A stretch of DNA of 32,040 nt from Acidobacteriota bacterium (GTDB lineage Bacteria; Acidobacteriota; Thermoanaerobaculia; Thermoanaerobaculales; Thermoanaerobaculaceae), in assembly GCA_004298115.1 (NCBI GenBank), contig SCRJ01000152.1, positions 1 through 32,040 on the forward strand. The letters are read 5' to 3'. The translations under genes were made by a program, and so were the position numbers. Positions within the stretch are counted from its first letter, which is position 1, and each line of letters starts with the position of its first letter. The notes beneath the pieces were generated by a model. It worked only from the letters and a program-made list of their open reading frames with translations, was not told where the DNA came from and did no database searches. Below are positions 7,768 to 27,899 of this stretch, in pieces.

Positions 7768-9771
7768 CTACGTCTTGTAGATCTGCTGCGCCCGCAGCTC
7801 TTTGATGCGGTCGCGCAGGCCGGCCGCTTCCTCGAACTCCAGCCGCTTCGCCGCCGCCTTCATCTGCTTCTCGAGCTCGGCGATCGCCCTGGCGAGCGAC
7901 GCCGGGTCGGTGATCTCCGCCTCCCCCACCCGCGGCGGCAGTAAACCCGCGTCGTGGTAGTCGAGGTTGGAGAGCTGCAGCAAGGGGCTCGCGATGTCCT
8001 TGATGATGCTTGCCGGCTCGATGCCGTGCTCGCGGTTGTACGCCTCTTGAGTCGCGCGCCGCCGGTTCGTCTCGGAGATCGCCTTGGCGAGCGAGTCGGT
8101 CATCCGGTCGGCGTAGAGGATCGCGGTGCCGTGGACGTTGCGCGCGGTGCGCCCGATCGTCTGCACCAGCGACGTCGTGCTGCGCAGAAACCCTTCCTTG
8201 TCGGCGTCGAGGATCGCGACCAGCGAGACCTCGGGGAGGTCGAGACCCTCGCGCAGCAGGTTGATGCCGATCAGCACGTCGAACGCCCCGCGCCGCAGGT
8301 CGGCCAGGATCGCGGTGCGCTCCAGCACCTCGACCTCGCTGTGCAGGTAGCGCACCCGCACGCCGAGCTCGGCGAAGTACTGCGTGAGGTCCTCGGCCAT
8401 GCGCTTCGTCAACGTGGTCACCAGCACCCGCTCGCCGACGGCGACGCGCTCGCGGATGCGCGCGAGCAGGTCGTCCACCTGGCCCTGCGCCGGCTTGACC
8501 ACGATCTCCGGGTCGAGCAGGCCGGTCGGGCGGATGAGCTGCTCCACGACCTCGCCTTCCGAGTGCTCCAGCTCGTAGGGGCCCGGCGTCGCGGACACGA
8601 ACAACGCCTGGTGGATCCGCCCCTCGAACTCCGCGAACGTGAGCGGGCGGTTGTCGAGCGCCGACGGCAGCCGGAACCCGAACTCGACGAGGGTCTCCTT
8701 GCGCGAGCGGTCGCCGTGGTACATCCCGCGCACCTGCGAGACCGAGACGTGCGACTCGTCGACCACGAGCAGCCAGTCCTCCGGAAAGTAGTCGAGCAGC
8801 GTCGGCGGCGGCTCGCCGGCCTTCCGGCGCGTGAGGTGGCGGGAGTAGTTCTCGATGCCGTTGCAGTAGCCGAGCTCGGCGAGCATGTCGAGGTCGAACA
8901 TGGTGCGCTGCGCCAGGCGCTGCGCCTCGAGCAGCTTGCCGGCGGCGGTCAGCTCCTTGCTGCGCTCGTCCAGCTCGGCGCGGATGTCCACCAGCGCCTC
9001 GTCGATCACCTTGCGCGTGACGACGTAGTGCGAGGACGGGTAGACCGCGAGGCGCGAGTCCACCTCCTCGAGCACGGTGCCGCGCAACGGGTCGATGCGG
9101 CGGACGCGCTCGACGGTGCGGTCGAAGAACTCGACGCGCACCGCGTGGTCGTCGTAGGGCGGGTAGATCTCGAGCACGTCGCCGCGCACCCGGAACGCGC
9201 CCGGCACGAGGTCGAGCTGCGTCCGCTCGTACTGCATCGCGACGAGCTGGCGCAGCACCGCGTCCATCCCCGGCGCGCCCCCGGGCTCGAGCAGGAGGAG
9301 CATGCCGTAGTAGGCGGAAGGGTCGCCGAGGCCGTAGATGCACGACACCGACGCGACGATCAGCACGTCGCGCCGCTCGAACAGCGCGCGCGTCGCCGAC
9401 AGGCGCAGGCGGTCGATCTCCTCGTTGATCGAGGTCTCCTTCTCGATGAAGGTGTCGGAGGACGGCACGTACGCCTCGGGCTGGTAGTAGTCGTAGTAGG
9501 AGACGAAGTACTCGACCGCGTTCTCCGGGAAGAAGGACTTGAACTCCTGGTAGAGCTGCGCGGCGAGCGTCTTGTTGTGCGAGAGCACCAGCGTCGGACG
9601 GTTCAACCGCTCGATCATCTTGGCGACGGTGAACGTCTTGCCGGAGCCGGTGACGCCGAGTAGCGTCTGCGCGTACACGCCCTGTTCGAAGGAGCGCACC
9701 AGACGCTCGATCGCCGCCCCCTGGTCGCCGGCCGGCGCGAACGGCGCCGCGAGCTTGAACGATTGGCTCAA
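7768..9771 (-). CDS. uvrB: UvrABC excinuclease subunit B
   Basis: 667 residues, normal UvrB length. UvrB loads from UvrA2B onto damaged DNA, verifies the lesion with its beta-hairpin and recruits UvrC for incision. Visible: Walker A GVTGSGKT (39-46), beta-hairpin region [16 protein letters not shown] (92-107), Walker B VVDESHV, helicase motif [17 protein letters not shown], motif V/VI region [17 protein letters not shown] and QTIGRTARN, and the C-terminal UVR hairpin [20 protein letters not shown]. The start is TTG 9771, fixed by homology ([17 protein letters not shown]) and by GGGGGGGAG upstream. The TTGA overlap with the previous gene's stop implies translational coupling. A longer open frame extends upstream but is out-of-frame sequence of that gene. 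Its last 140 bases are repeated at 6067-6206. Confidence 0.97.
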
Positions 9772-10184
9772 TTCGGCAGCTCCCCCCCGCCTTCGGCGCA
9801 CAGGCCGCCCGAGAGCACCTCGATCCGGTCGAGCGCCTCCGGGCTCACCCGCCCGGCCCTGACCGCGTCCGTGCACGCTCGCGCCAACTCCCCGAGGCGG
9901 CGCTCGTCGAGGCGCCCGGTCCGCGCCTCGCGCACCACGCAGTCGAGGCGGCGGCAGAGCTCCTCCCGCCGGGCCGGCGCCAGGTCGGCGGGGAGCGCCG
10001 CGACGACGCGGGTGGTGACGCGCTGCAGCCCCCACGCCAGCACGCGCCGGGCGGAGAACACGCCCGCCAGGAGCGCCAGGAACAGGAGGGCGACGACCAC
10101 GCCGCCCCCGATTCCGGCCCAGCGCAGCCACCCCGGCGGCTGCTTCGCACCGCCCGGGTACGCCTTCGGAAGTCGAAACTCCAT
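9768..10184 (-). CDS. Small single-span membrane protein of unknown function
   Basis: 138 residues from ATG 10184. A short basic/proline N-terminus is followed by one membrane segment (about 22-43, [20 protein letters not shown]) and a soluble helical domain rich in Arg/Ala with four cysteines ([37 protein letters not shown]). Not recognised as a named family. Its stop TGA overlaps the TTG start of uvrB (TTGA), so it is the upstream gene of a coupled pair. No good ribosome site precedes its ATG; it starts only 17 bases from the chance element TGCTAGCGT, a possible -10, suggesting a very short leader. No evidence that it takes part in DNA repair beyond position. Confidence 0.7.
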
Positions 10185-10223
10185 CGCAACACGCTAGCAC
10201 GCGCCGCGCCCCGCATCTACGGC

Positions 10224-10304
10224 GTGGTCCGTGGCCCGTGGTCCGTGGTCCGTGGTCCGTGGCCCGTGGTCCGTGGTCCGTGGTCCGTGGTCAGTGGTCA
10301 GTGG
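10224..10304. repeat. Heptad minisatellite, 11 full units
   Basis: Eleven consecutive 7-bp units plus gtgg: gtggtcc (x7), gtggccc (x2) and gtggtca (x2). The array is intergenic, between the uvrB upstream gene and the penicillin-binding protein gene. The single open frame across it codes only for a repetitive Val-Arg-Gly-Pro-Trp string and is not regarded as a gene. Related shorter arrays occur at 5686, 24031, 26250 and 30123. Confidence 0.9.
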
Positions 10305-18477: not shown

Positions 18478-21036
18478 ATGTTTCTACCGGGTGCCATCGC
18501 GATGTGGGTGGCCTTTTTCGCCCTCGTCGCGTCCACGTTCTTCTATTTCCGCACCGTGCGTGGCCACGAAGAGGCCCGCGCGTGGGCGCGGCAGCTCTAC
18601 GGCCTGGCCACCGTTGCCATCCTCATCGCCGGCGGCGTGCTCGTCTATCTGATCCTCGCCCATGACTTCCGGGTGCACTACGTCTACTCGTACTCCGACC
18701 TGTCGCTCCCCAAACCGTACCTCATCGCCACCCTGTGGGCCGGGCAGGAAGGCAGCTTCCTGCTCTGGCTGATGTGGGGCATGGTCGTCGGCCTGCCGCT
18801 CATCCGCTACGCCAGGCACTACGAGGAGCGCACCATGGTGGTTTACAACGTGGCGCAGCTCTCGTTGGTGCTGATCCTGCTGAAACAGTCCCCGTTCCGC
18901 TTCATCTCGGACCTCTCCTCCGGGCAGGTCCCGCTCGACGGGCAGGGGCTCAACCCCCTCCTCCAGAACCCCTGGATGACCATCCACCCGCCGATCATGT
19001 TCCTGGGCTACGCCGCCACGGCCGTTCCGTTCGCGCTGGCGGTCGCGGCGCTGTGGGGCCGGCGCTACGACGAGTGGACCAAGGCGGCCCTGCCGTGGGG
19101 TCTGGTGACGGTGGTCACGCTCGGGTGCGCCATCCTGCTCGGCGGCTACTGGGCCTACGTGACCCTCGGCTGGGGCGGCTACTGGGGTTGGGACCCGGTG
19201 GAGAACGCCTCCCTCGTCCCCTGGATCGCCTCGGCCGCGCTGGTGCACGGGATGATCCTGCAGCGGGCGCGTGGGCGGTTCCGAAAACTCAACTTTTCGC
19301 TCGCGATCCTCGCCTACGTCCTGGTGGTCTACGGGACGTTCCTGACCCGCTCGGGCGTGCTCGCCGACTTCTCGGTGCACTCGTTCGTGGACCTCGGCAT
19401 CACCGGCTGGCTGGTGGCCAACCTCGCGGGGGCGCTCGTCATCGGCTTCGGCGCGCTGGCGTGGCGCTGGCGGGAAATCCCGACGCAGCAGGGCGACGAG
19501 CCGTTCCTGTCGCGCACGGTCTTCTTCGTCCTCGCGATCGCCGCGCTCTTGGGGACCGCCGCGATGGTGCTGTTCGGAACGTCCACGCCGCTCATCACGC
19601 GCCTGGCGACCAAGCCGTCCCAGGTGGGTCCGGCGTTCTACAACCGCGTGGTCCTGCCGATCGGCATCGTCCTGGCCGCGCTGCTCGGGACCGTCCCTTT
19701 CCTGCAGTGGAAAGGCGCCGCCAAGGACTTCCGCAACCGCTTGCTGCTCTCCGGCGGGCTGGCGGCGGTCGCCACCGGCGTCGGGATCGTCGCCGGGGCG
19801 CGCGGCGTGCTCTACGTCACGTTCCTTCTCCTCGCGATCTTCGCGTTCTTCTCCAACCTGCTCAAGACCTGGGATGAGGCCAGGCAGGGGAAGATACGCT
19901 CGGCCGGCGGCTACCTCGCTCACGTCGGGCTCGGCCTGATGCTGGCGGGGATCGTCATCTCGTCCGCGTACGACCGCTCGCAGAAAGTCGTGCTGCCGTT
20001 GGGGCAGAGCCGGCAGGTGATGGGCTACACCCTGACGTTCAAGGGGGTGGACAAGCCCACCCCGACCGCTCGCGACGCCATGCTCGTCGAGGTCCAGGAG
20101 AAGGGCGGCCGCACGTACGTGGCGCGCCCCCACCTCTTCCGCAACGAGAAGTCGAACCAGCTCGTCGCCAACCCCGACGTCCACATGCAGCTGACCCACG
20201 ACGTCTACGTCTCGCCGATCGAGTTCGACCCCGGCCGCCCTCCCGAGAACGGCGACGCGCTGGACCTCGGCAAGGGCGAAACCGGCAAGGTCGGGCCGCT
20301 CGCCGTCACCTTCGACGGCTTCGACATGTCCGCCGCGCACGGCGAGGACCCGCAGAAGGTGGCGATCGGGGCCCACCTCACCGTCAAGGGGCCGACCGAG
20401 ACGCAGCAGCTGACGCCGTTCCTGCGCAGCGCCGGTGATGGCGAGTTCGTCGGGGACCCGGTGGCGATCGCCGGCTACAAGGACGCCACGGTGGCGCTCA
20501 ACGGGATCAACGCCAACACCGGGCACGTGCGCCTCGCGGTGACCGGGTTCGGTGCCGGCGTCGCGAAGAGCGCCGTGCTCCACCGCGGGGAGACCCTGAC
20601 CTACAAGGGCGTGACGCTCACCTTCGACGACTTCGACCTCTCGGATTTCGACCCGCAGGCCGGCAAGATCAACATCGGGGCGGTGCTCAAGGTCGCGAGC
20701 GGCGGCAAGACGAGCGAGATCACGCCGTTCTTCCACAGCGGCGCGAACGGCGAGAGCCACGACGACGCCGAGGTCCCGGGCCTCCCGGGCGTCAAGGTCC
20801 GGACGGGTCGCATGAACCCGAACGAGAAGACGGTCGAGATCCAGGTCCTCGACCCGAAGGCGCCGCCGGACGAGGGCGTGCCGATGCAGTTCTCGGTGGA
20901 CCTCACGATCAAGCCGATGATCGGTCTGCTCTGGGGCGGACTCGTGGTCCTGTTGGCGGGCGGCATCATGGCGACGATCCGCCGCGGCGAGGAGTTCTCG
21001 ACGGCGGCCGCCGGGCGCCCCGGCGCCGGCGCCTGA
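18478..21036 (+). CDS. ccmF: Cytochrome c haem lyase subunit CcmF, with enlarged periplasmic domain
   Basis: 852 residues from ATG 18478 (GGGGGGGAG just before it; GTG 18457 is an alternative). Typical CcmF is about 650 residues. Multi-spanning N-terminal part with TIHPP (His170), the haem-handling WWD loop GWGGYWGWDPVENASLVPW (231-249), His257 (LVHGMI) and His301 (SVHSFVD). These residues are the conserved ligands of the family, which attaches haem to apocytochrome c. After helix AHVGLGLMLAGIVIS (481-495) comes a roughly 320-residue periplasmic region with an internal repeat (607-687 and 711-790), then a final helix (815-833). No ccmG or ccmH follows. Starts 42 bases after ccmE. Confidence 0.95.
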   Translation: MFLPGAIAMWVAFFALVASTFFYFRTVRGHEEARAWARQLYGLATVAILIAGGVLVYLILAHDFRVHYVYSYSDLSLPKPYLIATLWAGQEGSFLLWLMWGMVVGLPLIRYARHYEERTMVVYNVAQLSLVLILLKQSPFRFISDLSSGQVPLDGQGLNPLLQNPWMTIHPPIMFLGYAATAVPFALAVAALWGRRYDEWTKAALPWGLVTVVTLGCAILLGGYWAYVTLGWGGYWGWDPVENASLVPWIASAALVHGMILQRARGRFRKLNFSLAILAYVLVVYGTFLTRSGVLADFSVHSFVDLGITGWLVANLAGALVIGFGALAWRWREIPTQQGDEPFLSRTVFFVLAIAALLGTAAMVLFGTSTPLITRLATKPSQVGPAFYNRVVLPIGIVLAALLGTVPFLQWKGAAKDFRNRLLLSGGLAAVATGVGIVAGARGVLYVTFLLLAIFAFFSNLLKTWDEARQGKIRSAGGYLAHVGLGLMLAGIVISSAYDRSQKVVLPLGQSRQVMGYTLTFKGVDKPTPTARDAMLVEVQEKGGRTYVARPHLFRNEKSNQLVANPDVHMQLTHDVYVSPIEFDPGRPPENGDALDLGKGETGKVGPLAVTFDGFDMSAAHGEDPQKVAIGAHLTVKGPTETQQLTPFLRSAGDGEFVGDPVAIAGYKDATVALNGINANTGHVRLAVTGFGAGVAKSAVLHRGETLTYKGVTLTFDDFDLSDFDPQAGKINIGAVLKVASGGKTSEITPFFHSGANGESHDDAEVPGLPGVKVRTGRMNPNEKTVEIQVLDPKAPPDEGVPMQFSVDLTIKPMIGLLWGGLVVLLAGGIMATIRRGEEFSTAAAGRPGAGA

Positions 21037-21161: not shown

Positions 21162-21764
21162 ATGCGAGGCGTTTTCCTGCTTCCCCTCTACCCGTTGCAG
21201 GGTCTCGTCCTGCTTCCCGGCGAACGCTGCACCGTCCCGTCCGCGGGCGGCGACCGCCGCGCCGTGCTGGCACGCGCCCGCGACCACGGCGGCGCGGTCG
21301 TGGCGTCGCTCGCCGACGGCGAGTCGGTGCACGATGTCGGAGTCACGGCCATCCTGGGCGAGAGCGGCGAAGGGGCGGCCTCCCTGCACGGCGTGAGCCG
21401 GTGCCGTCTGGTCTCGCTCCAGGCCGACGACGCCCTGATGGTCCGGGCCGAGCGCTTTCCCGAACCGGAGATCGAGGGACCGCGGGCCGCCCGTGTCGGC
21501 CGGCTGCTTGGCGCCCGCTACGAGCGGCTGTGCGCGCGCCTCGGCCGCGAGGCCGCCGTCGCCGCGTCGTTCGACCTCACCGCGCTCACCTGGCGCGTCA
21601 CGGCGGACCTCGGCATGCCGGCGGAGCAGCAGCAAGGTTTCCTCAACGTCCCGGACCCGCTCTCACGCGCCAGGCTCCTGTTGCTGGCGGTACGGGAGTA
21701 CGAGCGCCGCGAGCGCTTCCTCCGCGGGTGGGCCCACCTCCGCACCACGAACCCTTGGAACTGA
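21162..21764 (+). CDS. LON substrate-binding-domain protein (stand-alone)
   Basis: 200 residues from ATG 21162. The N-terminus FLLPLYPLQGLVLLPGE is the hallmark start of the Lon N-terminal (LON/PUA-like) domain, followed by beta strands (AVVASL, GVTAILGE, LVSLQADDALMVRAERFPEPE) and a helical C-terminal subdomain (ARLLGARYERLCARLG to the FLNVPDPLSRARLLLLAV hairpin). There is no AAA ATPase or Ser-Lys protease domain, so it is not Lon itself. Such stand-alone proteins are of uncertain role, possibly binding unfolded segments or acting as adaptors. It is followed 9 bases later by the HEPN-like gene and probably forms a two-gene operon with its own promoter. Confidence 0.85.
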   Translation: MRGVFLLPLYPLQGLVLLPGERCTVPSAGGDRRAVLARARDHGGAVVASLADGESVHDVGVTAILGESGEGAASLHGVSRCRLVSLQADDALMVRAERFPEPEIEGPRAARVGRLLGARYERLCARLGREAAVAASFDLTALTWRVTADLGMPAEQQQGFLNVPDPLSRARLLLLAVREYERRERFLRGWAHLRTTNPWN

Positions 21765-21773
21765 CGGACACCT

Positions 21774-22796
21774 ATGGCCAAACTCGACGCCAACCTCGAC
21801 GCCTGCCAGCTCTCCAGCGATCTCCTGCTCCGTCTGCGCAAGATCGTCCGGGAGAGCCTGCGCTCAACCCACGGCTCGAACTGGGAGGAGACCGGGATCC
21901 CAGGCGAGCTCCGGGAGTTCCTCACGCAGCGACAGGCGCGCGAGGCGAGCATCAACTGGAACCTCTCCGACAGCGTGGACGCGCTGGACTTCGCCGGCTT
22001 CGTCAACCTCTACGACATCATCGCCGCCGCCCCCCATCTGCTGCAACGCTTCCTCCCGCTCGCGCCGGATGCGCACATGCTCAGGATCAGGTTCCTCGAG
22101 CTCGACACCATCCTGAACCGGATCGCGTACGCGCGTCCGATCTCCGAGTCCGATCTCGGCTTCCTCGTGAGCTTCGAGGAGCGTCTCAAGCGGACGACGA
22201 GCGCCCCTCCGCCCGCCGTGGCAACGGACGACGCACCCAGGGCTCCTCGGGAACGGGTCGAAAGGGTCGAACGGGCCGAGCCGGCCGAGCGGGCCGAGGC
22301 CGCCGCGCCGCCTCGCGCTCCGGCCGCGGCGCCGAAACCCACTGCCGGAGCGGCGCCGCCGGAACCCGCAGCGGAACCTGCCCCGGCCCCTGAACCGAGC
22401 CCCGCGCCCGAGCCTGCCGCCGCGGTGCCCACCGCCGCTCCGACGCTCGGCCCCAAAGAGATCGAGGCCGCCCTCAAGCGCGGCGACAGTGCGGTCATCC
22501 TGACCGCGATCTACCAGGAGGTGACGTCGCTCGCCGACGGGCTCTGGAACGGCTCCGTGGTTTCGATGCAGACCCGCACCTGGGAGAGCGTCAGGGAGTC
22601 GCCGTGGTACCGCAACCAGTTCGTCAAGCTGGGCCTCAAACCGATCTCCGACTTCTTCGGTCTGTTCGAAGCCGCCAAGGAGAAGATGCAGGCCGGCACG
22701 TCCCGCAACGAACTGCAGGAGTTTCTCAAGGAGCACAGCTTCGTGCAGGTGCTGCTGGCGCTCAAGGAGCTCTTCCGCCACCACGTGCGGCGGTAA
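21774..22796 (+). CDS. Unknown protein with apparent degenerate Swt1-like HEPN domain and C-terminal helical domain
   Basis: 340 residues in three parts. Residues 1-140 are helical and resemble Swt1-type HEPN domains (LRKIVRESL, ALDFAGFVNLYDII, then FLELDTILNRIAYARPISES). The position of the HEPN RNxxAH nuclease motif reads LNRIAY (114-119): Asn is kept but Arg and His are replaced, so RNase activity is unlikely. Residues 142-223 are an Ala/Pro/Glu linker with a 9-bp DNA periodicity (ERV ERV ERA). Residues 224-340 form a second helical domain (IYQEVTSLADGLWNG, WYRNQFVKLGLKPISDFFGL) not recognised. Soluble, no signal peptide. Second gene after the LON-domain protein; function unknown, and the HEPN assignment is by eye. 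Confidence 0.72.
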   Translation: MAKLDANLDACQLSSDLLLRLRKIVRESLRSTHGSNWEETGIPGELREFLTQRQAREASINWNLSDSVDALDFAGFVNLYDIIAAAPHLLQRFLPLAPDAHMLRIRFLELDTILNRIAYARPISESDLGFLVSFEERLKRTTSAPPPAVATDDAPRAPRERVERVERAEPAERAEAAAPPRAPAAAPKPTAGAAPPEPAAEPAPAPEPSPAPEPAAAVPTAAPTLGPKEIEAALKRGDSAVILTAIYQEVTSLADGLWNGSVVSMQTRTWESVRESPWYRNQFVKLGLKPISDFFGLFEAAKEKMQAGTSRNELQEFLKEHSFVQVLLALKELFRHHVRR

Positions 22797-24030: not shown

Positions 24031-24058
24031 GTGGTCAGGGGTCCGTGGCCCCTGGCCG
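24031..24058. repeat. Short heptad array (4 x 7 bp)
   Basis: Successive units gtggtca, ggggtcc, gtggccc, ctggccg, the same family as the 10224 array, in the spacer between the aminotransferase and the histidine kinase. Confidence 0.6.
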
Positions 24059-24089
24059 GAGGACGGCGACGGGATCGGTGGACGTCCGC

Positions 24090-26174
24090 TCACGGATCCG
24101 GGGTCGCCCCGGCCTCGAGCACGTGGCGAAGGACGCGGGCAAGGACCGCCACGTCGAAGGGCTTCTGCAGGAAATGCACCGCGCCGCCGGCGAAGAGGTC
24201 GCGCGCCAGCTCGTCGGGCGCATAACCCGACATCACGACCACCTGCAGACCGGGCCAGCGCTCGCTCAGGCTGCGCGCCAGCTCGAGCCCGGAGGCGCCG
24301 GGAAGACGGAAGTCCGTGAGGAGGACGTCGAACCCGGTGGCGCCGTCGACCGCCGTCGCCTCCTCGCCGGTTGCCACCGCCGTCACCCGGTAGGAGAGCA
24401 TGGAGAGCAGCTCGGTGAGGCCCCGCCGTGCGCCTTCCTCGTCCTCGACCAGCAGGATCCGCTCGTTGTGGCCGGCCGGGGCGCCGTGGGACATCTCGAC
24501 CGGCTCCATCGCTGCAACGGGCCGCGCGGCGGCTCCCCGCGGCAGCAGGATCTGGAACGTGGAGCCGCGACCCACCTCGCTCTTGACCTCGATCCGTCCG
24601 CCGTGCTCCTTGACGATGCCCCAGACGACCGCGAGGCCGAGGCCGGTGCCCTTCCCTGGCGCCTTGGTCGAGTAGAACGGGTCGAAGATGCGGTCGCGAA
24701 CCTCATCCGACATCCCGGTCCCGGTGTCGCGCACGGACACGAGCACGTCGTCGCCCCGAGCCTCCGCCGAGACGGCTACGGTCCCACCCGCCGGCATCGC
24801 GTCGCGGGCGTTGACGACGAGGTTTGCCAGGACCTGGCTCAGCTGACCGGCATCGCCTTCGACCGGCAACGGCCGGTCCCCGGGCTCGACCCGCAGCGTG
24901 ATCGTCTCGGGAAGGACGCGGCGGAGCATCGAGCTCTGTTCGACGACCAGGGCCGCGAGGTCGACGGTCTGCCATTCGGCCGGCGTCTGCCGCGAGAAGA
25001 GCAGGATCTGGCGGGTCAGCTGCGCCCCGCGCCGAACCTGTGCTTCGATCTCGCCGAGCGTCCGCTCCAGAACCGGACTGGACGCGGGCAGCGCCCCGGC
25101 CTGCAGTCGCGCAGCCTGGACCGCGGACAGCGTCGCCTGGAGCAGGTTGTTGAAATCGTGAGCGATCCCGCCGGCCAGCGTCCCGACCGCCTTCATCTTC
25201 TGCGCCTGACGGAGTTGCCCCTCCAGCCGTCGACGTTCCGACACGTCGTGAGCTACGGTCACACGGCCGCGGCGGCCTTCGAACGTGATGCCGTGGGAGG
25301 CGAGTTCGACCTCGAAGACGCGGCCGTCCCGGGCCCGGTGGCGCTGGCCCGGCCGTTCCTCCTCGCCGGAATCCGGGCGCGCCCGGGCGGCATCCGCCTC
25401 CATCGGCGGGTGGTCATCGACCGGCCAGAGGTCCCGGATCGTCATGGCCAAGAGCTCTTCCCGCGAATAGCCGTAGTGATCGACCATCGCATCGTTGACC
25501 GCGAGGAAGCGGAGCGTCTCGAGGTCCCACACCCACATCGGCAGCGGGTGAGCGAGGAAGAGGTCGCGGTAGCGCGCTTCGCTCTCGCGCAACGCCGCCC
25601 GGCCCCGGGCCTGCTCCTCGAAATCCTGGAAGAGAAGGCAGGCGGACACCGTCGCCAGCGGGTAGAGGAGGAGGATCGACGGGCCGAGGTGCAGCATCAC
25701 GGATGGACCGGCCCACCCCGGCAACGCGACGATGCACGCCAGCATGACAACGTGGACGAGCACGCCGACGGCCACGAAGAAGCGGGCTCCGCGCGGCCAG
25801 CCTCGCCGCCGGCGCACCGTCTCCGCGGCCGCGCCGAGCGTCGCCGCTTCCACGATGACGGCCAACCCCATGACCGTTCCCGCCCCGCCGAGAGCCAGTC
25901 GGTACGCGGCGCACGCGAGCGCCGCCGTCCCGGCCACCACCGGTCCCCCGAAGATACCGGCTACGGCGAGGATGACCGAACGGCCGTCGAAGATGATGCC
26001 GGGCAGGAGCCGAACCGGCGTGGCCATGCCGACGACGCCGACCGCGCCGAAGAGCAGACCGGAGAGGATGCGGCGCCGCAGCGTGGTCTGCCGGGCCCGC
26101 GCGCCGATGCGCTGGAAGAGAGCAGCGAGCGCGACGAGCAGCGCGAGGTTCTGGACGAGGGCGAGAACGATCAC
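24090..26174 (-). CDS. Hybrid sensor histidine kinase: 5TMR-LYT, PAS, HisKA, HATPase, receiver
   Basis: 694 residues from GTG 26174. The N-terminal membrane sensor (about 1-185) carries the 5TMR-LYT signature (VRLLPGIIFDGRSVILAVAG, then FGGPVVAGTAALACAAYRL). A PAS domain follows (about 198-315), then HisKA with phospho-acceptor His339 in GGIAHDFNN, then HATPase_c with N-box NLVVNARDAM (451-460), G1 DTGTGM (483-488) and G2 GKGTGLGL (508-515). The C-terminal receiver has acidic VEDEE (576-580), phospho-acceptor Asp621 in LLTDFRLPG and Lys671. No DNA-binding output domain and no adjacent response regulator, so its output must act elsewhere. The ligand is unknown; 5TMR-LYT proteins are linked to envelope and murein signals. 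Confidence 0.93.
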   Translation of the reverse strand: MIVLALVQNLALLVALAALFQRIGARARQTTLRRRILSGLLFGAVGVVGMATPVRLLPGIIFDGRSVILAVAGIFGGPVVAGTAALACAAYRLALGGAGTVMGLAVIVEAATLGAAAETVRRRRGWPRGARFFVAVGVLVHVVMLACIVALPGWAGPSVMLHLGPSILLLYPLATVSACLLFQDFEEQARGRAALRESEARYRDLFLAHPLPMWVWDLETLRFLAVNDAMVDHYGYSREELLAMTIRDLWPVDDHPPMEADAARARPDSGEEERPGQRHRARDGRVFEVELASHGITFEGRRGRVTVAHDVSERRRLEGQLRQAQKMKAVGTLAGGIAHDFNNLLQATLSAVQAARLQAGALPASSPVLERTLGEIEAQVRRGAQLTRQILLFSRQTPAEWQTVDLAALVVEQSSMLRRVLPETITLRVEPGDRPLPVEGDAGQLSQVLANLVVNARDAMPAGGTVAVSAEARGDDVLVSVRDTGTGMSDEVRDRIFDPFYSTKAPGKGTGLGLAVVWGIVKEHGGRIEVKSEVGRGSTFQILLPRGAAARPVAAMEPVEMSHGAPAGHNERILLVEDEEGARRGLTELLSMLSYRVTAVATGEEATAVDGATGFDVLLTDFRLPGASGLELARSLSERWPGLQVVVMSGYAPDELARDLFAGGAVHFLQKPFDVAVLARVLRHVLEAGATPDP

Positions 26175-26495
26175 CGCGCATCCCGTGTGATTTCGTGCAT
26201 CTCCGGCACATCCCTCCGGACCAGCTCGTGCTCGCTAATCTACCATGTCGGCCCGTGGTCCGCGGTCGGAGGCCGGGGTTCGGGGCTCGAGCTCCGCGCC
26301 GGCGCGATTCGTCGTCGCCGGTCCGTGCCGCGCCGCCGCGAGTGCTCCCTCGAAGTCAGAAGCAGCCCCCGGCGGGCGCGCCCCACAGCGAAACCGACGA
26401 TGCCGACAGGCAGGATGAGGGTGCAAACCGGCGCCGCGCATGCCTGCCTGCGGCCGGACGGACGGTTCGCCTCCGGCGGCGTCCCGGCGAGGGCG
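26175..26495. other. 321-bp gene-free spacer
   Basis: It lies between the histidine kinase and the methyltransferase, both minus strand. It contains the heptad array at 26250-26291. One minus-strand frame (around 26330-26450) would encode a hydrophobic stretch (LILPVGIVGFAVG) but has no start codon or ribosome site, so it is left unannotated. Confidence 0.45.
26250..26291. repeat. Heptad array (6 x 7 bp, diverged)
   Basis: Units ggcccgt, ggtccgc, ggtcgga, ggccggg, gttcggg, gctcgag keep a 7-base period while drifting in sequence. It joins the ggtccgt style of the 10224 array to the ggttcgg style of the 30123 array. Confidence 0.6.
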
Positions 26496-27899
26496 CTACG
26501 GCTTGCGCGCGACCAGCAGGTAGTCGCGCGGGGCGGACAGCCACCCGTCCAGCTTCGCCGCCAGCTCCCGTACGGCTTCGGGCTGGGACGGGGCGGCCAG
26601 CGCCTGATCGGGCGGGAACGGGTGCAAGAACCTCGTCTCCACCACCTCGAGCCCGAGCGCTCTGACGACGAAGGCGAGCGCCTCGGGATGCACCGGGGCG
26701 CGATGGGTCGGGTCGAGCCAGAACAGCCCGGCGCCGACGCGCAGCGACTCGGGGTTCGGGCTCTCGATCATCAGGATCCCGCCCGGCCGCAACGCCGCGG
26801 CGGCCGCTTCCACGAGCGCCATCCATCCGGCCGCCGGGAAGTGCTCGACGATGTGGATCGCCGTGACCGCGCCCAGGCTCCCCGGCGCCGACGCGCGCAG
26901 CGCAGCGATGGCCTCATCCTCCTCCACCGTGAGGGCGAGCCGCCGGCACGCTGCGACCATCGCCGGATCGGCGTCCACACCGCGCGCCTCGACGCCCGCG
27001 TCCCGCAGCGCCTCGAGCAGCTCGCCCCGGCCGCAGCCGAGGTCCAGCACCGGCGCCGCGGTCCCCAGCAGACGGACGTGCTCCGCGGCGCGACCGAGGA
27101 TCTCGCCGCGCTCACCGCGGAACTCGTCCGCAAAGGCGCGCGACGCCGCCGCGACCGCGGCCGGGATGCGCGCCTCGACATCCGGCGCGACGGCGACGTG
27201 CAACGGCTCGTGGCGCGCGACGCGCTCCGCGAGCCCCGCCACCTCGGCGAGCTCCTCGTGCAAGCGCTCGACGAGGGCGTCGGTGCGCGCCGCCAGCGCC
27301 GGTAGTCGCCGGTCTCGCAGCTCCTCGGCGAGCGCCTGGACGCCGGCGATCGTCGCCGGGGCGGCGTCGATGGCTCGCTGCAGCCGTTCGATGCCGGCCT
27401 CGGCCTGGGGGAGGCGGGTGTCGCGCAGCGATTCCACCTCGCGCTGCAGTGCCTCGGCGGCGCGTTGCAGCCCCGCGAGCGCGGCCTCGCCCGCCGGCAC
27501 CCGCGTGTCCCGTAGCGACTCCACCTCGCGCTGCACCGCGGCCGCCGCCTTGCTCGCACCGTCGACCCCGTCGGCGAGCTGCAGGAGCCGCCGGTCGCGC
27601 ACCTCTTCGAACTCGCTGCGGGTGAGGAGGTAGGCCTCGCGCAGGTCGACGATCGCCGCCGCCTCCCGATCGAGACGGGCGTCGAGGCGGCGCTGCAACT
27701 CGGTCGTGCCGGCCGCTTCGCGCTGCACGCCGCCGGCGAGCGCCGTGGCGGCAGCCAGATCTCCGTCGATCCGCTCGAGCTCCGGCCACAACACCGCTCT
27801 GGTCGCCCGCCGCAGCAGCCGCAGCAACCATCCCTGCCGGCCGCGCTGCGGCTGCGGTGGGGTTCCTGCCGCGCCCGCGGGGGGGTGGCCGTCGCTCAC
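26496..27899 (-). CDS. SAM-dependent methyltransferase with long N-terminal coiled coil
   Basis: 467 residues from GTG 27899, beginning 6 bases after the rplI stop. Residues 1-40 are basic/proline-rich with an amphipathic helix (WLLRLLRRATRAVLW) that may touch membrane. Residues 40-235 are coiled coil; two adjacent 29-residue units (122-150 and 151-179) share QREVESLRDTR. The class I methyltransferase domain follows: motif I VLDLGCGRG (284-292), Asp309 in GVDADP, post-I IHIVEHFP (348-355) and the motif LRPGGILMIESPNPES. FWLDPTHRAPVHPEAL resembles methyltransferases acting on surface polysaccharide ends. Such coiled-coil fusions can act as molecular rulers (compare WbdD); that role is inference here, with no polysaccharide cluster nearby. 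Confidence 0.85.
   Translation of the reverse strand: MSDGHPPAGAAGTPPQPQRGRQGWLLRLLRRATRAVLWPELERIDGDLAAATALAGGVQREAAGTTELQRRLDARLDREAAAIVDLREAYLLTRSEFEEVRDRRLLQLADGVDGASKAAAAVQREVESLRDTRVPAGEAALAGLQRAAEALQREVESLRDTRLPQAEAGIERLQRAIDAAPATIAGVQALAEELRDRRLPALAARTDALVERLHEELAEVAGLAERVARHEPLHVAVAPDVEARIPAAVAAASRAFADEFRGERGEILGRAAEHVRLLGTAAPVLDLGCGRGELLEALRDAGVEARGVDADPAMVAACRRLALTVEEDEAIAALRASAPGSLGAVTAIHIVEHFPAAGWMALVEAAAAALRPGGILMIESPNPESLRVGAGLFWLDPTHRAPVHPEALAFVVRALGLEVVETRFLHPFPPDQALAAPSQPEAVRELAAKLDGWLSAPRDYLLVARKP

Follow-up and report, generated by a model that had tools for sequence, protein, structure and literature searches.

A HEPN-like protein lacking the catalytic motif is conserved across an order of Acidobacteriota and paired with a stand-alone LON protein in one family

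At the tail of an Acidobacteriota ccm gene cluster lies a two-gene unit whose second product, P2, is by its sequence a HEPN-superfamily protein that has lost the RNxxxH catalytic motif. P2 is conserved across the order, and in one family it is preceded by a small LON-domain protein, P1. The LON-P2 pairing does exist, but it is a secondary feature, and what has been conserved is P2. The DNA analyzed, referred to here as the window, was the whole 32,040-nt contig SCRJ01000152.1 of assembly GCA_004298115.1, and the parent genome is 4.0 Mb in size and 96% complete. A CcmF-like gene (18478..21036, + strand) lies 5′ of the pair and, as judged from gene order and conservation, ends a conserved cluster of presumed ccm genes. 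P1 (21162..21764, + strand), delimited by its reading frame and its match to PF02190, is a 200-residue stand-alone protein of the LON substrate-binding domain type. P2 (21774..22796, + strand), delimited by its reading frame and conservation, starts on the same strand 9 bases after the P1 stop codon and has 340 residues, which comprise an N-domain resembling a degenerate Swt1/PDC-M34B-type HEPN (residues 1–140, 21774..22193, + strand, from profile and alignment), an Ala/Pro-rich linker (approximately residues 141–222, 22194..22439, + strand, from composition and variability), and a conserved, four-helix-bundle-like C-domain (residues 223–340, 22440..22793, + strand, from model and conservation). 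The reading frames bear out the coordinates, strand, 9-base gap, and three-part P2 layout given in an earlier note on this DNA. Because both genes are under purifying selection and there is conservation across the order, what is observed here is not a product of chance.

What is the P2 N-domain? P2 has no Pfam or NCBIfam match, and both collections in their present form miss the P2 family; likewise, nothing in the genome of the window matches PF18731 (HEPN_Swt1) at E≤1, nor does any member of the P2-family profile. However, P2 alone matches the PADLOC profile PDC-M34B (E=7.2e-11), with homology over approximately 105 residues of the N-domain, and divergent members of the P2 family match this profile as well. 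A P2-family profile built from 32 P2 homologues retrieves L093 (8.3e-13) and L094 (2.6e-6), which are HEPN proteins from other families in the phylum. L093 passes PF18731 with 50.6 bits (cut-off 27.5), matches PDC-M34B with 226 bits, and adjoins a DUF5343 (PDC-M34A) gene. In the alignment, the P2 motif LNRIAY (residues 114–119; 22113..22130, + strand) takes the place of the RNxxAH of intact relatives, falling opposite RNFIAH in L093, RNPAKH in L094, and RNSLAH in L111, and a common Arg follows in each case. On the strength of the PDC-M34B match, the profile connection to L093 and L094, and the motif alignment, we assign the P2 N-domain from its sequence to the Swt1/PDC-M34B group of the HEPN superfamily. 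The earlier note had made its Swt1-type HEPN reading of the P2 N-terminus depend on a HEPN profile match; such matches exist, and PDC-M34B and the P2-family profile support that reading, with PF18731 itself missing P2. The structure models, all of single chains, were computed from shallow alignments (5 and 4 sequences) drawn from the window and related loci. Of five AlphaFold models of the N-domain, one was confident (pLDDT 82), and it consists of helices throughout. Its weak structural matches include AbiF and HEPN toxins (Z 6.4, 4.5, and 4.0), but TBK1 and other unrelated folds score equally well, and the model is not decisive alone. At E≤0.001, Foldseek matched neither the N-domain nor the C-domain to a PDB structure. 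Another HEPN-like protein is encoded in the same genome (L122, G000:C179, 3–1133); it has RKSVMH where RNxxxH is expected.

The catalytic motif RNxxxH (R-x4-6-H) is intact in none of the 36 P2-family sequences inspected and is kept in six related HEPN proteins of the phylum; the loss is therefore family-wide and old. At the ccm locus of the family to which the window belongs (f1), LNRIAYAR or a similar sequence occupies the motif region; the sister family (f2) has RAKLGRAR, REKLALAR, and the like there; genus g6 has AQKLGHGH or HEKLAGLR; and other variants occur in P2 paralogues. The Arg and His of the motif are never both in place among the 36. The change from RNxxAH to LNRIAY that had been proposed for P2 is confirmed by the alignment with RNFIAH and RNSLAH. 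The accompanying claim that Arg and His are lost holds in this genome but does not extend to the sister family, which keeps Arg and loses Asn/His, or to two g6 proteins, which keep His without Arg. Because the HEPN superfamily includes recognised motif-less members (Anantharaman et al. 2013, PMC3710099), the motif loss denies P2 membership among the RNases, not homology. Could the domain still cleave RNA through other residues? A HEPN family can have a different set of active-site residues, and a lack of the motif need not prevent a HEPN protein from acting as a toxin (Anantharaman et al. 2013, PMC3710099); moreover, R22, R106, and E109 vary little or not at all within the P2 family. However, LNRIAYAR, RAKLGRAR, and AQKLGHGH differ by subfamily and present no single replacement set at the site, and HEPN domains without conserved polar residues are treated as binding domains (PMC3710099). 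We consider it improbable that P2 is still an RNase.

The linker, in which 50 of 82 residues are Ala or Pro, varies in length and sequence. In the C-domain, residues W270, W278, F294, F334, and E249 are invariant across the order. The C-domain model (pLDDT 86) resembles generic four-helix bundles only, including Psb27, chemoreceptor domains, and designed bundles (best Z 8.6), in keeping with the unrecognised helical C-terminal domain of the earlier description, and its conservation spans the order. Weak matches of P2 to SSI, DnaX-like, PspA, and MinC proteins lie mostly on the Ala/Pro linker and were rejected. We also attribute to chance a profile match to a cytochrome c555 trimer (3.5e-8 as the sum over three repeats), which covers 42 columns; the P2 of the window contains one Cys only and lacks CxxCH. 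In the same comparison a single-domain cytochrome scored 14.8 bits (E=0.15).

Of the 36 other genomes examined from the order, 32 encode P2, and the four without it are 66–90% complete; P2 is absent from all 23 genomes in the rest of the class. Several genomes contain two copies. From this distribution we conclude that P2 has been inherited vertically as a core gene and does not show the patchiness of a defence gene. Pairs of PDC-M34A (DUF5343) and PDC-M34B (HEPN) are thought to be phage-defence or toxin-antitoxin modules, and the unit described here could be another: P2 shares with PDC-M34B, a PADLOC candidate defence HEPN whose partner at L093 is PDC-M34A, both N-domain homology and a two-gene layout. 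However, P2 has no RNxxxH, which is lost throughout its family, and carries an extra linker and helical C-domain. Its partner is a LON protein, not DUF5343; P1 has no PADLOC match and no M34A/DUF5343 match, and the adjacent M34A gene that is present at L093 is missing at P1/P2. Furthermore, P2 is near-universal in the order, not sporadic, its loci are conserved within each family, the plasmid search gave no match to it, and PHROGs returned nothing useful for it. A defence or toxin-antitoxin function is thus very unlikely.

Two other groups invite comparison with P2. The Swt1-like HEPN proteins (PF18731; Abi2/Swt1 group, Anantharaman et al. 2013) are linked to it through the bridging relative L093, which passes PF18731, and the Abi2/Swt1 group already has inactive members, for example eukaryotic Swt1 (PMC3710099); P2 differs from them in falling below PF18731 and in having no PIN, AAA+, or WW domain. 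Many of the MtlR-type regulatory HEPN proteins are motif-less and tied to one operon, and they have been proposed to be non-catalytic regulators (PMC3710099). P2 is likewise a motif-less HEPN, but it belongs to another HEPN family, has no mannitol link, and has a C-domain. With P2, a HEPN from a family of defence-type nucleases has become, without the motif, a core gene fixed throughout a bacterial order, and, with motif-keeping relatives available for comparison, what motif-less HEPN domains bind becomes directly testable. Fast-evolving P2 paralogues (L079, L083, L088, and L089) occupy another conserved location, close to a PLD-like protein and to genes with the look of citrate synthase.

Residues 7–174 of P1 match PF02190 almost in full (profile positions 2–195 of 200; E=4.9e-5). 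The window copy scores 23.8 bits, under the Pfam cut-off of 28.7, and its orthologues in the same family score 31.8–45.6 bits, above it. Judged by these scores P1 is a LON-domain protein, for which the cut-off is passed at family level only, via the orthologues, and the stand-alone LON domain of the earlier note is upheld. P1 consists of the LON domain only, with no AAA+ or Ser/Lys protease domain, and does not qualify as a Lon protease; three further LON-domain genes in the same genome have open frames of 802–983 codons, as expected for Lon proteases. P1 is similar to the stand-alone LON substrate-binding domain proteins (PF02190) in its full-length LON match without the AAA+/protease part, and differs from them in that it forms a divergent subgroup tied to P2, with the window copy below the cut-off. 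Our literature search found no paper that pairs LON with HEPN, and none on DUF5343-HEPN or PDC-M34.

How tightly is the LON protein bound to P2 in evolution? P1-like LON proteins occur in 11 of the 16 other genomes of family f1, which is Thermoanaerobaculaceae-like, and were not found in the sister family, where only Lon-sized proteins match. Each of them is encoded immediately 5′ of P2 or of what remains of it, so that the pairing, which the earlier note would have given up had it been confined to this genome, recurs in 11 others of the same family. Intact LON-P2 pairs are separated by 9 (most), 13, 3, or 1 bases. In two genomes of the same genus (G002 and G005), P2 lies without LON 203 bases after ccmF. 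All of the ccm-locus P2 proteins form one clade in the tree (100/99), and G002 and G005 are nested inside it; LON was therefore gained once and lost once. Because these two genomes and the whole sister family have P2 without LON, LON cannot be essential to P2. The dN/dS values are 0.21–0.37 for LON, 0.14–0.24 for the P2 N-domain, 0.26–0.33 for the P2 C-domain, and 0.13–0.22 for CcmF; the linker, at 0.31–0.64, is the fastest-evolving part of P2. In G014 (L064, ~8754–10280; a single MAG), LON is interrupted by an in-frame stop, P2 is disrupted by a frameshift and a stop, and the adjacent ccm genes are open; this damage reflects either joint decay or MAG error.

These observations bear on whether P1 and P2 came to be neighbors at the ccm tail by chance of genome history and are co-transcribed without any joint work. 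That sister-family P2 genes have no LON neighbor, and that G002 and G005 lost LON but kept P2, would be expected under such a history, and since the pair arose once, its conserved adjacency counts as one event. However, the 1–13-base gap stays while LON identity drops to 38–47%, every P1-like LON adjoins P2 or its remnant, and the two genes appear to have decayed together in G014. We judge chance adjacency to be a plausible explanation, though not a probable one.

With slightly better than even confidence, we propose that P2 is a non-catalytic HEPN adaptor and that its LON neighbor is a translationally coupled accessory subunit. This proposal fits a core gene with family-conserved loci in which the motif is lost everywhere and the N- and C-domains are kept. 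P2 would act as a cytoplasmic pseudo-RNase adaptor. Its HEPN N-domain, minus the R-N-x3-H set, would be retained for dimerisation, for binding RNA or protein, or for both, which agrees with the published view of HEPN domains without the motif as binding domains (PMC3710099), and the floppy Ala/Pro linker would bear the four-helix C-domain, which would dock a partner. The LON protein would have been added once, directly upstream of P2 in one family; the short gap suggests translational coupling, and LON would most likely join the P2 complex and contribute a peptide-binding surface. We infer the dimerisation of P2, its binding of RNA or protein, its contact with LON, and the process served, as well as the scaffold or RNA-binding role suggested in the earlier note. 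A bolder version, which we offer tentatively and think more doubtful than not, is that P2 is a pseudo-RNase belonging to the core genes of this order alone, that it descends from a HEPN nuclease of the defence type and was domesticated to serve as a scaffold or RNA receptor, and that one family gained a LON subunit to yield an undescribed LON-HEPN complex, possibly tied to cytochrome c biogenesis.

Finally, P2 might itself act in electron transport or cytochrome c biogenesis, for instance by regulating the expression of ccm genes or multihaem cytochromes. P2 comes after the ccm cluster in family f1, and 11 of approximately 17 main-copy loci in the sister family lie beside a 21–23-haem cytochrome, most of them also with a NapC/NirT protein. 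However, the paralogues and several loci of the sister family are without such neighbors, and P2 shows no apparent signal peptide or membrane segment. We consider this role unlikely, and the link of P2 to cytochrome c is a possible lead. At the sister-family loci in question (L071, L072, L074, L077, L078, L080, L082, and L084–L087), the P2 homologue is beside a cytochrome of ~970–1050 residues with 21–23 CxxCH motifs, and a 5-haem NapC/NirT protein is often encoded between the two. Elsewhere in the window, a 1086-codon open frame (24045–27305, + strand) runs antisense to a histidine kinase (24090–26174, − strand) and a methyltransferase (26496–27899, − strand) and is most likely a high-GC artefact.
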